From: Deltaproteobacteria bacterium | GTDB lineage: Bacteria > Bdellovibrionota_B > Oligoflexia > Oligoflexales > CAIYRB01 | DNA: 39,394 bases | Reading direction: 5' to 3' | NCBI GenBank assembly: GCA_016874735.1 | Contig: VGTI01000038.1 | Coordinates: forward strand, 1-39,394 | Shown here: positions 34,361 through 39,394 of the stretch, piece by piece | Layout: every line of letters starts with the position of its first letter | How positions within the stretch are numbered: position 1 is the stretch's first letter | The notes under the pieces: model-generated | The model's input: only the letters and a program-made list of their open reading frames with translations | Databases searched by the model: none | Told to the model about the DNA's origin: nothing | Made by a program: the position numbers and the translations under genes

Positions 34361-34648
34361 ATGAAAATCAGGCCCCTTCAGGACCGAATCCTGGTTAAAA
34401 GGCTGCAGAGCGAAGAGAAAACCGCCAGCGGCATCATCATCCCTGACAATGCTAAAGAGAAGCCACAAGAGGCGGAAGTGATCGCTGTCGGTTCCGGCAA
34501 GATCCTCGACGACGGCAAAGTGCGCAAGCCTGACGTTAAAGTTGGCGACCGCGTACTGTTCAGCAAATACGCTGGTTCCGAAGTCAAGATCGACGGCCAC
34601 GAGCACCTGATCCTGCGCGAAGACGACCTTCTCGGCGTCCTCGTCTAA
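34361..34648 (+). CDS. groES: Co-chaperonin GroES
   Basis: 95-residue cap of the GroEL chamber. [20 protein letters not shown] is the family start, with the mobile loop [20 protein letters not shown] and [25 protein letters not shown] lies 8 bases before the ATG. groEL follows after 67 bases in the usual order. Predicted to be strongly expressed. Confidence 0.97.
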
Positions 34649-34694: not shown

Positions 34695-36365
<1,671 letters not shown>

Positions 36366-36408
36366 GATCCTGTAGTTACAGGGTTTTATAGCTCACCTAA
36401 GCTAAACA

Positions 36409-36444
36409 ATTGGGCTCCTACCGCAAGGTAGGGGCCCAATTTTT
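36409..36444 (+). terminator. Rho-independent terminator of groESL
   Basis: A 14-bp stem (ATTGGGCTCCTACC, 36409-36422, with 36427-36440) with a GCAA loop and a run of Ts. A smaller hairpin CCTGTAGTTACAGG (36369-36382) followed by GTTTT lies directly after the groEL stop. Confidence 0.93.
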
Positions 36445-36536
36445 GTCGTGTAAATAACTATAAACGCTGTAACATGTGGCCCGCTTATTAGTGCGCCTTC
36501 GTGGACTAGAGCGCTTCTAAATGATCGGATGTGAAA

Positions 36537-36710
36537 ATGGACGGTTCAGCTGGCATTAGATGGCAACAGCAGTTTGACAACTACTCTAAGGCCCATGAGA
36601 CATCGCTCGACGACTTGATGCTGGCCTACAAGATTGACCTGATCTTCATGCACCACATTGATAACGATGCACTGACTGAGCATATTGAGAGATTTGGCAT
36701 CGATCTTTAG
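36537..36710 (+). pseudogene. Relic joining a HEPN (HI0074-like) start to an MNT nucleotidyltransferase end
   Basis: A 57-codon frame. Its first part, IRWQQQFDNYSKAHE, resembles the start of HI0074-type HEPN nucleotidyltransferase substrate-binding proteins. Its second part, LMLAYKIDLIFMHHIDNDALTEHIERFGIDL, resembles the C-terminus of the partner MNT nucleotidyltransferase (LPYxxDLxxxxxIDNPxLxxHIxRVG). In such loci the HEPN gene usually comes first. The simplest reading is an internal deletion that fused the two ends in frame. A TAG falls where the final Tyr/Glu residues would be expected. Homology is from recognition of motifs, not a search. Confidence 0.6.
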
Positions 36711-36729
36711 TAACCGAGGTTTGATCTAA

Positions 36730-37272
36730 ATGACGATTCCAGTTTCACTCGAAATCTATCGACGCTTCGACCTGTTTCTCCAATCACGGGACCTGACATT
36801 TGAGGGATTAATCGTCGGAGGCGCAGCATTCATGCTCTTGGGTGTTCGTGACGCCGCGACTGAAGACATCGATTTCATTAACCAGATTCCTGGTCAAGTT
36901 AGGGCTGCCTCCGAAGAATTTGCAAAACAGGAAGACCTCAAGCTCGCGTGGTTCTCGGATCGAGCCCGGGTAGTTAATGATTACCTAAAATTCGGCTACG
37001 GCAAAGACGGCGTGCAGGATCTTTTCCTCGGTAAAGCGTTGAAGCTTCGCTGCCCGTCCCCAGATAACCTTCTAATCTCCAAGCTATGCCGCATCACCGA
37101 CTCAGGGCCGCGCCTTCAAGACATCGAGGACGTCCGACGCTTGGCTCTGCCTGCCGCAACCTTTGATTCTGTCGTCGTGCACCTTTTGCTCAAGGAGAAG
37201 GCAAATAAAGGCGACGTAGCTAAGGCAAAGAAAATCCTAGCGGTGCTGAGGAAGGATCTTTACGGAGCCTGA
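36730..37272 (+). CDS. Nucleotidyltransferase-fold protein, AbiEii/DUF6036-like
   Basis: 180 residues. LIVGGAAFMLLGVRDAATEDIDF carries the GG plus R-x-T-x-DID pattern of AbiEii- and DUF6036-type minimal nucleotidyltransferases, followed by a helical part (SPDNLLISKLCRITDSGPRLQDIEDVRRLA) with the K-R-D-IEDVR-type motif usual in these proteins. The family often acts as the toxin of toxin-antitoxin or abortive-infection pairs by modifying RNA, but substrates differ. GAGG precedes the ATG by ~11 bases. It lies 20 bases after the HEPN/MNT relic and converges, with a 13-base overlap, on the HTH gene. Confidence 0.78.
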   Translation: MTIPVSLEIYRRFDLFLQSRDLTFEGLIVGGAAFMLLGVRDAATEDIDFINQIPGQVRAASEEFAKQEDLKLAWFSDRARVVNDYLKFGYGKDGVQDLFLGKALKLRCPSPDNLLISKLCRITDSGPRLQDIEDVRRLALPAATFDSVVVHLLLKEKANKGDVAKAKKILAVLRKDLYGA

Positions 37273-37955
37273 TTATATGACGGCAAAGTCGCTCCAGCTG
37301 TCACTGCAGTCATAATCTCGCCAGCAATGCGCCCAGCCGCTTCCCGTGAGCAATGAACAAGCTTCGCGATCTCGCTAGAGGCAGTGACTCCCCGCGCGAT
37401 AGCATAGGCGACATCTGCCCTGACATCGGCACCATACTGGAGCCGCAAACGATACTGTAGGTTCGCTATCGCCAACTCCTCAACGGATAACACGTCCTCA
37501 CGGCGGATTCGAAGTGCTCCGACCGGAACCTTCAGACCACAGCCGATGAGCCACTCCTCGTTCTCAGTCGCGTCAGCCATCTCGACTAGAAGACGTGGCT
37601 GAGACCTCAGCGCGCTTTCGGCTAGCTTGCGGGCCAGCAGACGCCATTTCGCGTAGCCACGGCTAACGGCTAGGTGGGCCAAGACTGCGAGCCAAAAATG
37701 ACTCACTGGTTCAGCTGTTGCGAGCGCGTGCAGCTTCTCAGTGCGCACGCGGGCGCCATGAATGCAAACCCAGGTAGCTAGCAGCTCGGCAATCAGGGGG
37801 TGCACCGCAGCATTAGCCGCCGCTTCGACAAGCAGAGTCTCAATGTCTGTATCCACGTCTCCCATCGATGCTGGCAAACCGAGACCGCTGCCCACGCGAA
37901 TGCCGAGGACCTGCCTCAGGTCTGCCCATAATTGATGTCTGGTGACTTTTGACAT
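37260..37955 (-). CDS. HTH-containing protein, possible regulator/antitoxin partner
   Basis: 231 residues, no signal or membrane helix. The N-terminal and middle parts are helical and unrecognised. The segment VRADVAYAIARGVTASSEIAKLVHCSREAAGRIAGEI near residue 180-215 looks like a winged helix-turn-helix, similar to regulators that accompany AbiEii/DUF6036-like nucleotidyltransferases. The ATG at 37955 has AAGG at 7 bases. A perfect palindrome lies 15 bases before it, suggesting self-repression. It is tail to tail with the nucleotidyltransferase, not in an operon with it, which is unusual for a toxin-antitoxin pair. Confidence 0.7.
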   Translation of the reverse strand: MSKVTRHQLWADLRQVLGIRVGSGLGLPASMGDVDTDIETLLVEAAANAAVHPLIAELLATWVCIHGARVRTEKLHALATAEPVSHFWLAVLAHLAVSRGYAKWRLLARKLAESALRSQPRLLVEMADATENEEWLIGCGLKVPVGALRIRREDVLSVEELAIANLQYRLRLQYGADVRADVAYAIARGVTASSEIAKLVHCSREAAGRIAGEIMTAVTAGATLPSYNQAP

Positions 37956-37970
37956 TGGAAACCTTCGTCT

Positions 37971-37985
37971 GTTGGACTGTCCAAC
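37971..37985. promoter_or_regulatory. Palindrome upstream of the HTH gene, candidate operator
   Basis: GTTGGACTGTCCAAC: a 6-bp perfect inverted repeat with a 3-base centre, directly upstream of the ribosome site of the minus-strand HTH gene. A -10-like TATATT (minus strand, 37995-38000) lies just beyond it, so a bound protein would overlap the transcription start. Confidence 0.5.
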
Positions 37986-38579
37986 TCACTAGCTAATATA
38001 TCGTCATTTTTGGTAAATTCTTTAGCAATTTCTCTCAACACTCGGGAATTAAATATAAAATTCCGTCAGTCCCATGAAACACAGATCCTTGCGTAGCTAA
38101 GTAGTGCGGGAGACCCGTTGGCAGTATTGGCGATTGCTCTCAATCTCTGAGAAACCGAAACCGCATATTTGTGACCCGAGGCTAAACGTTCAGCGCGGAG
38201 GCTGCGGATGCAAAGCATGCGCAGTAAAGACCTAGGGGCAAGGTTCATGCCAAAACACAACTAACTAAATTTATTTGATTTGCTTTTTTATGAGCGGCTT
38301 TGGCGTACCCGCCGTGGCCACAATACGTAGCCACGGTGTTTGCAACACCCAGAATCTACTTGGTATTTCAAAAACGAGATGTGGCATCAAAATATGCCCA
38401 ACAAATGGCACACAAAATGACCTCCTGGTGACTAAAAGCATGTCAGCCATCCCTCCGTAATCATAGCATTTTAAAGCTGGTCCTGAGGCAACTCACAAAT
38501 GACCCTAAAGAATGCGACCAAATACTCCGAGGATCTCTCGTCAGAGCGGATAGGCCCAGGATTCCGAAGGAGGCTCAAA
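37986..38579. other. Non-coding stretch (~600 bp) with one hairpin, no convincing gene
   Basis: Only short frames without ribosome sites or family features are seen (for example 38066-38260 minus, 38275-38460 plus). The stretch is A/T-richer at 37986-38060. An inverted repeat CCGTGGC/GCCACGG (38312-38318 with 38330-38336) forms a 7-bp hairpin with an 11-base loop, without a T run. It may contain a decayed gene or the promoter of the gene at 38580. Confidence 0.5.
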
Positions 38580-39394
38580 GTGGGCATCCGGGGTTTCAAA
38601 ACCTCAGCGACAAGAAGATCGCAGCGAGTGCTGGCGGCTCTTCTGACCGTTTGCCTCACGCCCGCTGCCCAGGCTCAGGGCGTCGGGAGTCTCCCGATGA
38701 CCTACTCAGGTAGGCTCACGGAATCTTCTGGCGCGCCAAAAGACGGGCCTGTCGCGATTGAGGCAACATTTTGGACCGCAGAAATTGACGGTACACAACT
38801 CGGGCAGTCGTTTGATTTCGCCAGTGTGATTCTAAACCAGGGGGTATTCTCACTTTACTTCCCGTTTATGGCCACCCAGGTGCAGGACATCTTCCGCGAT
38901 GGCACGGAGCCTGTATTTATCGAGATCTCGTCGGGCGGTAAGACCTATCCACGGCAGAAATTTAACTACATCCCGCTCGCCATGCGTGTCCCTGTTGATA
39001 ACAAGAGTGTCGGGTTCGACGTCACCAGTGGCAAGCTAGGGATTAGCGGCGTGAAAGACGCGGCTTCGGGTAGCGTCCTTGTGAGTAACGGTGCTGGTGG
39101 CGTCAAGTGGGACAACCTCAGCTCCAGTAATCTCACGGCCAAAACTGAGGCGGGTGCGGCCCCTGTAGCGGATCAGGTGCTGACGTACAGAAGCGGCAAG
39201 TGGGTAGCGGCAAGCTTGCCGCCGGCGGCGGCGTCTGGCAACTACCTAACGGGACTAACCGGCGATATCGTGGCAACGGGCCCGGGTACTGGCACTGCAA
39301 CTCTGGCAACTGTTGCAACGCCTGGCACGGCGACTAAAGTAACGTTCGATGCGCAGGGTCGAGTGCGCTCGGGAACTAGTCTTGTAGCTGCAGA
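38580..39394 (+). CDS. Secreted fibre-like protein, 5' part (runs off the window end)
   Basis: The frame from the GTG at 38580 stays open to the end (271 codons). AAGGAGG (38567-38573) lies 6 bases upstream. The basic N-terminus and hydrophobic stretch (RVLAALLTVCLTPAAQAQG) form a signal peptide of about 33 residues. The next ~110 residues are a beta domain (MTYSGRLTESSGAPKDGP; VFSLYFPF; KTYPRQKFNYIPLAMRV). Gly/Ala/Thr/Ser-rich fibre-like sequence follows (GNYLTGLTGDIVATGPG; TATKVTFDAQGRVRSGTSL), like phage tail-fibre or S74-chaperone-ended surface proteins. The C-terminus is not in view, so the type is inference. Confidence 0.8.
   Translation, partial: MGIRGFKTSATRRSQRVLAALLTVCLTPAAQAQGVGSLPMTYSGRLTESSGAPKDGPVAIEATFWTAEIDGTQLGQSFDFASVILNQGVFSLYFPFMATQVQDIFRDGTEPVFIEISSGGKTYPRQKFNYIPLAMRVPVDNKSVGFDVTSGKLGISGVKDAASGSVLVSNGAGGVKWDNLSSSNLTAKTEAGAAPVADQVLTYRSGKWVAASLPPAAASGNYLTGLTGDIVATGPGTGTATLATVATPGTATKVTFDAQGRVRSGTSLVAA

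Follow-up and report, generated by a model that had tools for sequence, protein, structure and literature searches.

Why do defence-type genes stand directly behind groES-groEL, an essential and highly expressed operon, and why are two of them arranged tail to tail? We addressed these questions for a stretch of 39,394 nt (the window), which comprises all of contig 38 of a draft genome with 166 contigs (G000).

The Region Behind groEL

An earlier note, made from the letters of the window alone, had described an accessory island with defence-type genes after the groESL terminator. This description was borne out, and a terminator is predicted directly behind groEL. The G+C content was 45% between groEL and the gene for a minimal nucleotidyltransferase (MNT) and was again low between the gene for a helix-turn-helix (HTH) protein and a large ORF at the contig end, compared to 55.6% in the first 34 kb. 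The coordinates given earlier for the MNT gene, the HTH gene, their overlap and a palindrome were all correct on recheck. The features of the region are:

34361..34648, plus strand: groES, context gene; the order groES-groEL is also present in genomes G005, G007 and G013
34716..36365, plus strand: groEL, target gene, with the putative attachment site at its 3' end; the protein is 92-97% identical in four genomes of the same genus
36345..36364, plus strand: putative attachment-site core GGCATGGGCGGGATGATGTA, the last groEL codons; the core is repeated in the genome and found behind integrase genes
36341..36442, plus strand: core plus predicted left end of the element including the terminator; 102 bp, 99% identical to G000:C31:9245-9346
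36408..36441, plus strand: predicted intrinsic terminator after groEL
36531..36710, plus strand: ORF of 59 codons, deletion scar with the N-terminus of a HEPN protein fused to the C-terminus of its MNT partner
36730..37272, plus strand: DUF6036 minimal nucleotidyltransferase, 180 aa, putative toxin, based on the PF19502 match, the fold model and conserved residues
37260..37272: tail-to-tail overlap of the MNT and HTH ORFs, 13 bp
37260..37955, minus strand: HTH protein, 231 aa, putative antitoxin and autorepressor, based on a C-terminal HTH at about residues 190-219 and on linkage to the MNT gene
37971..37985: perfect 15-bp palindrome GTTGGACTGTCCAAC, with the sequence GTTGGACAGTCCAAC on the strand of the HTH gene; candidate operator for this gene
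38499 to the contig end at 39394: large ORF of which only the start is present, as the contig stops inside it

The DUF6036 Nucleotidyltransferase

The MNT protein matched the Pfam family DUF6036 (PF19502) with 44.5 bits at a cut-off of 23.6, in agreement with the earlier view of a minimal nucleotidyltransferase of DUF6036 type. It contains the motif GG...R-x3-T-x-DID (R40, T44, D46, D48). In an alignment of 14 members eight positions were invariant, among them G30, D46, D48, K118 and D131, and four were nearly so, including T44; D134 was conserved. The structure model, built from 14 homologues, had a pLDDT of 91.9. Its nearest solved folds were ANT(2'')-Ia, JHP933 from H. pylori, AbiE and MenAT1, with modest scores (best Foldseek E value 3e-3), and a profile search of solved chains with the MNT protein returned only a fungal nucleotidyltransferase-like protein and, weakly, AbiGII.

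In motif order, without superposition, T44, D46, D48, K118 and D131/D134 match T39, D41, D43, K137 and D149/D152 of MenT1. The toxicity of MenT1 requires D41, K137 and D152 (PMC10435456), and D43 and D149 are named in PMC11375011. As judged from the alignment, the MNT protein appears to retain MenT-like catalytic residues, and its probable activity is the modification of a tRNA, of another RNA or of a protein. A literature search under the name DUF6036 found nothing on the pair.

The MenAT and AbiE (DUF1814, PF08843) systems share with the pair in the window the minimal nucleotidyltransferase fold, the T/S-x-D-x-D, K and D residues and an HTH partner. The AbiE-type membership suggested earlier had to be rejected on the profiles: in the family profile searches AbiEii (PF08843) did not match the MNT protein, nor did the AbiEi profile match the HTH protein, while DUF6036 was the family found. 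In AbiE (type IV toxin-antitoxin), the AbiEi antitoxin has an N-terminal wHTH and its gene comes first in a co-directional pair; here, the HTH is C-terminal and the MNT gene comes first in most relatives. The MNT-HTH pair plausibly works like MenAT. A second type of nucleotidyltransferase was seen at L033:9418-10538, with a DUF6036-like score of 21.1 bits, below the cut-off. Its gene is located downstream of an XRE gene in co-directional orientation, behind the same left end as in the window.

The HTH Protein and Its Linkage to the MNT Gene

No family above threshold was found for the HTH protein in Pfam, NCBIfam, PADLOC or PHROGs. Its model, from 13 homologues, was all-helical with a pLDDT of 88.2, and no solved fold matched it in a search of the PDB. 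Profile positions around 190-228 showed weak resemblance to the winged HTH regulators CRP, AsnC and IclR. The most conserved stretch across homologues was a QYRNRLIYGAxWRADI-like motif, followed by the HTH. A first scan of named genomes with the window protein as lone query gave no relatives. Homologues are present in relatives of the window's genome and in named genomes, which are MAGs filed under Bdellovibrionales, Bacteriovorax, an epsilonproteobacterium and other names; no relatives were found among plasmids, phages and viral contigs.

Absence of co-occurrence in other genomes had been named in the earlier note as the result that would speak against a functional pair. Among 20 loci with a near-full-length HTH homologue, from relatives and named genomes, a DUF6036 gene adjoined the HTH gene in 17. 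Fourteen of these pairs have the MNT gene before the HTH gene, mostly with an overlap of a few bases, two have the reverse order (G022:C48 and G002:C208), and one, the pair in the window, is convergent. The HTH gene occurred without an MNT neighbour in the remaining three loci (G000:C114, G002:C167 and G000:C59, the last with internal stops). The MNT and HTH genes are a true gene pair. The solo copies G000:C114 (L030/L116) and G002:C167 (L022/L135), which lack a nucleotidyltransferase, are both located directly upstream of a gene for a KfrA-like coiled-coil protein, in the same order in both loci.

The HTH gene was intact in all 17 pairs. The MNT gene was broken in five, some of which could be assembly errors of the MAGs: it was truncated in G005 and G002:C208, internally deleted in G063 and interrupted by nonsense codons in G007 and L143. 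As far as small numbers and draft genomes allow, this asymmetry is as expected for an MNT toxin and an HTH antitoxin. We infer that the pair is a toxin-antitoxin module in which the HTH protein neutralises the MNT protein. Loci in which only the MNT gene of the pair is broken represent a natural experiment.

Inverted Repeats at the Promoters

The perfect 15-bp palindrome that had been noticed at the HTH promoter was confirmed; it sits 16-30 bp before the HTH start codon. Over its full length the window contains 11 palindromes with arms of at least 7 and a spacer of at most 1, versus 2-10 in five shuffles, so that such palindromes are not rare; at the HTH promoter, p was 0.013. No palindrome of comparable strength was present upstream of the MNT gene in the window.

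The earlier proposal that the palindrome is a likely operator gained support from the relatives. We searched for inverted repeats with arms of at least 6 within -70 to +10 of the first gene of each pair; in the window and for solo copies, the HTH gene was taken instead. Such repeats were present at 10 of 16 loci, against a null mean of 3.0, and none of 300 shuffles reached 10. When all half-sites and spacings with perfect arms were considered, ATTx-N7-x'AAT was found at 7/16 loci, a number reached by 0/500 shuffled sets searched in the same way. A looser test (any 4-mer half-site, one mismatch, corrected for selection) gave 8 loci against a null mean of 7.3 and was not significant (71/200 shuffles). 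The window palindrome reads GTTG-N7-CAAC and has the TTG-N7-CAA arms and the spacing of the relatives, with a different outermost base. Since related sequences are not independent, the shuffles count as support and not as proof; with this restriction, the promoter repeats support autoregulation by the HTH protein. The candidate operator, the new HTH family and DUF6036 together add a putative toxin-antitoxin system to the nucleotidyltransferase toxins.

A Scar of a HEPN-MNT Module

The small ORF between the terminator and the MNT gene consists of the first about 22-30 codons of a HEPN gene (PF08780-type) and the last about 32 codons of its MNT partner. Window positions 36501-36599 are 86% identical to DNA in G004:C408 at which a full HEPN gene (PF08780, 138 bits) begins, right behind an arm+core site as defined below. 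Residues 2-31 of the small ORF were 60% identical to that HEPN protein (E value 2.5e-5). The second half matched the C-termini of MNT proteins encoded near HEPN genes in G021 and G010 with 48-52% identity (48% over 35 aa; E values 1e-8 and 3e-6). The presence of a HEPN start and an MNT end in one ORF indicates that a HEPN-MNT module was once located here and lost its middle part. The small ORF, which starts near 36537, was rejected as an intact gene, as it carries only the start of the HEPN gene and the end of the MNT gene. Regarding HEPN-MNT (type VII) membership of the window pair, no HEPN gene lies beside the MNT gene; what directly precedes the pair is a fused remnant of the HEPN and MNT genes, and the intact pair consists of DUF6036 and the HTH protein.

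The groEL Tail as Putative Attachment Site

A 22-bp form of the core, GGCATGGGCGGGATGATGTAAG, was found with at most three mismatches at 11 places in G000, groEL included, and the reversed-pattern control gave none. Before most copies there is a conserved arm, about 150 bp long, that contains direct repeats (GACACGA-CTGC-GACACGA or equivalents) as well as the motif AACTACCNGTAAATACTAACCCATACTTCTCNGTACCAAA. The G000:C31 copy of window positions 36341-36442 also follows a conserved arm. The site copies in G000 are on separate contigs and some are partial (C1, C36 and C84), possibly secondary or degenerate. The partial or degenerate cores at G000:C84:73, G000:C1:268158 and G000:C36:10213, some of them beside apparent chromosomal genes, may be secondary integration sites or relics.

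A model of arm plus core (R1) gave 44 matches in 13 of 96 genomes (G007 with 15, G000 with 9, G005 with 4, G004 with 3, and others). Among the 96 genomes, no match occurred in orders or phyla other than the order of the window. The arm together with the groEL core offers a simple handle by which all such units can be located.

At least seven units have a small ribbon-helix-helix-like gene whose start lies directly upstream of the arm and which is oriented away from the core. Copies were located at L033:5437-5880 (-), L105:753-1112 (+), L107:1510-1857 (+), L194:1296-1649 (-), L195:3001-3216 (-), L197:5674-5994 (-) and L201:441-797 (+). For the two copies scanned, no Pfam family was above the cut-off. 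The protein may bind the arm repeats, with a role in recombination directionality or as an oriT accessory factor.

Integrase Genes and Arrays

One unit, in G004:C369, carries genes for a relaxase (PF03432), a TraH-like protein, an Xis-like HTH_17 protein and a tyrosine integrase (Phage_integrase plus SAM_3), the last of which ends 183 bp from a core. Homologues of this SAM_3-type integrase were present at 10 loci in nine genomes of the window's order. In 10/10 loci the end of the integrase match is followed, after about 100-500 bp, by a groEL-tail core in convergent orientation to the integrase. This core was groEL's own 3' end in six loci (G011, G014, G015, G023, G028 and G040:C336) and an arm+core copy in four. 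As this is the usual arrangement of integrase gene and attachment site, it identifies the groEL tail as the probable attB. No copy of the core-adjacent integrase was found in G000 at E <= 1e-40, and the units of G000 thus resemble cis-mobilizable remnants (CIMEs).

A 298-aa Xer-like recombinase (G000:C31:864-1757) was rejected as integrase of the arrays, as it is restricted to the genus and no shared left end or core was found upstream of its copies. The gene and its 64-79% identical copies are located at L033:864-1757, L187, L188, L189, L190, L191, L203 and L204, and a relic of this recombinase lies right behind groEL in G005.

Arm+core copies delimit tandem units that are rich in toxin-antitoxin genes. 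In G013 (8 contigs, another family), two arm+core sites come after groES-groEL; both have the same orientation, and their cores lie about 1.9 and 6.6 kb behind the groEL core. On G005:C49 the order is groEL, an XRE-Fic unit, a site and then an AbiE unit. The DNA directly behind groEL in the site-less G002 recurs behind a site in G005:C19 (91.8% identity over 425 bp), so that by sequence these loci appear to represent the empty and the occupied site. The units between sites are short, 1.7-4.7 kb. Cargo between or beside sites included AbiEi/AbiEii, Fic, MazEF, a VapC-type PIN protein, ParE/HigB-like proteins with XRE, AAA/DUF4143 and DUF6036; other genes are present in G013 as well.

A Model for the Element and Alternative Explanations

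We consider it likely that the groEL 3' end is the attB site of a family of tyrosine-recombinase elements and that the window shows the left end of such an element, carrying a toxin-antitoxin-like pair in which the HTH gene has been flipped. This model builds on features that can be read directly from the compared genomes: the gene pairing, the operator family, the core repeats, the position of the integrase relative to the core, and the arrays. ICEs and their decayed descendants would use the groEL 3' end as attB across the order. The integrase would recombine inside the last about 20 bp of groEL, so that the groEL sequence is retained. The element would bring its own left end including the groEL terminator, and its far end would be marked by a second groEL tail, behind the arm of about 150 bp. 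Later elements would insert at the same core, which would lead to a tandem pile-up, and most units would have lost the integrase and kept their toxin-antitoxin cargo. Such a history would explain the defence-type genes behind groESL in the lineage of the window.

The window element itself would first have carried a HEPN-MNT module, since cut to the scar, and would now carry the DUF6036 nucleotidyltransferase with its HTH partner. The HTH protein would neutralise the MNT protein and repress its own promoter by binding to the palindrome. While the MNT and HTH genes of relatives would form a single autoregulated operon, in the window the HTH gene would have been inverted and have its own promoter with operator.

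The position of the pair on the first unit behind groEL has good, although not complete, support. The left-end DNA of the window is common to two arm-flanked copies (G000:C31 and G004:C408), and G040:C35 has a homologous MNT-HTH pair behind a variant core. No arm+core site was found to the right of groEL within the window; since the contig ends within the large ORF, the right end of the element is not seen and presumably lies beyond the contig. The pair adjoins a core in only two of about 20 pair loci (the window and G040) and is thus not specific to these elements. The same observations bear on the view that the MNT and HTH genes simply inserted behind groEL, without any relation to the attachment site. 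The lack of a right-hand site in the window and the location of most relatives' pairs away from cores fit such an insertion; we nevertheless regard it as unlikely in view of the shared left-end DNA, of the HEPN scar, which begins where the HEPN gene begins behind the G004 site, and of the G040 pair behind a core. An integron-like cassette array, with the repeated sites as single-stranded hairpins of attC type, is highly improbable. Its short units of 1.7-4.7 kb with toxin-antitoxin cargo between repeated sites would resemble sedentary chromosomal integrons, but we found no conserved single-strand fold in the sites: none of five predicted pairs was covarying, and an attC structure was rejected. 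Furthermore, the gene for the integrase, a phage-type recombinase with SAM_3, adjoins its own core, and the G004 unit has conjugation genes.

Two other explanations concern the pair. The earlier note had regarded the convergent order as an unusual toxin-antitoxin layout, possibly with antisense control, in which the overlapping 3' ends would regulate each other through antisense RNA or transcriptional collision. The 13-bp overlap was verified, no terminator is predicted between the two genes in the window, and the HTH gene is preceded by a promoter region of its own that carries the putative operator. The orientation is indeed unusual, but a layout of the system as such did not hold, since all 16 other pairs are co-directional and the convergent order is thus local to the window and points to rearrangement rather than design. 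In addition, the overlap falls into the non-conserved tail of the HTH protein, which was modeled with low confidence (pLDDT about 50), and an overlap of 13 bp gives little room for antisense control unless transcription continues beyond it. We hold this explanation to be quite improbable. Slightly less so, though still unlikely, is an exchange of roles, with the MNT protein as antitoxin or modifier, like MntA in HEPN-MNT, and the HTH protein as toxin or modified partner. According to PMC7641770 and PMC11586414, MNT proteins of HEPN-MNT systems act as antitoxins by modifying HEPN toxins. In the HTH protein, however, no HEPN or RNase-like feature is seen; the protein has its HTH at the end, and its gene occurs alone in three loci and is never the broken partner in a pair, in contrast to the MNT gene. 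The flipped MNT-HTH module on a groEL-targeting element is the preferred reading: the convergent layout is a one-off, and the pair and the attachment site are the lasting findings.

Relation to Known Elements

It is established that ICEs, IMEs and CIMEs with toxin-antitoxin cargo accumulate in tandem at the 3' terminus of a gene (PMC5704250). The arrays described here share with this process, known for example from the ICESt1 family, a conserved gene with a site-specific integrase at its 3' end, tandem elements on one core, decayed units that keep their att sites, and toxin-antitoxin cargo. They differ in that the target is groEL, the units are short and have a common arm, and arrays of this kind are found repeatedly in different families within one order. 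The groEL 3' end is also already known as att site of phage-mobilised islands (PICIs) of staphylococci (SeCISE48; PMC8125051), where the last 18 bp of groEL likewise overlap the att site and groEL is unaltered. Those islands are mobilised by phages and occur in Firmicutes, whereas here ICE-type genes were found in one unit, together with toxin-antitoxin cargo and multi-unit arrays. By sequence, the groEL-tail arrays appear to be CIME/ICE accretion at a new site, in another phylum, with ICE-type genes, short common-arm units and order-wide recurrence.

A more far-reaching idea is that the groEL 3' end serves throughout the order as a general cassette dock, at which short integrase-less arm+core units are captured and shuffled in trans by incoming elements, so that ever more toxin-antitoxin and defence modules accumulate. 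We consider this doubtful. If units do move in trans, this would be a second route besides integrons for stockpiling small gene cassettes, and the dock would correspond to an integron that works on double strands and uses a phage-type integrase.

The large ORF at the right end of the window (38499-39394) belongs to a group of large, secreted-looking ORFs that share an N-terminal region (YSGRL...ASGAP). The others were located at L066:58-5895 (-), L105:8299-8862 (+) and L101:120-812 (-), and the contigs with such ORFs also have a core or a site.
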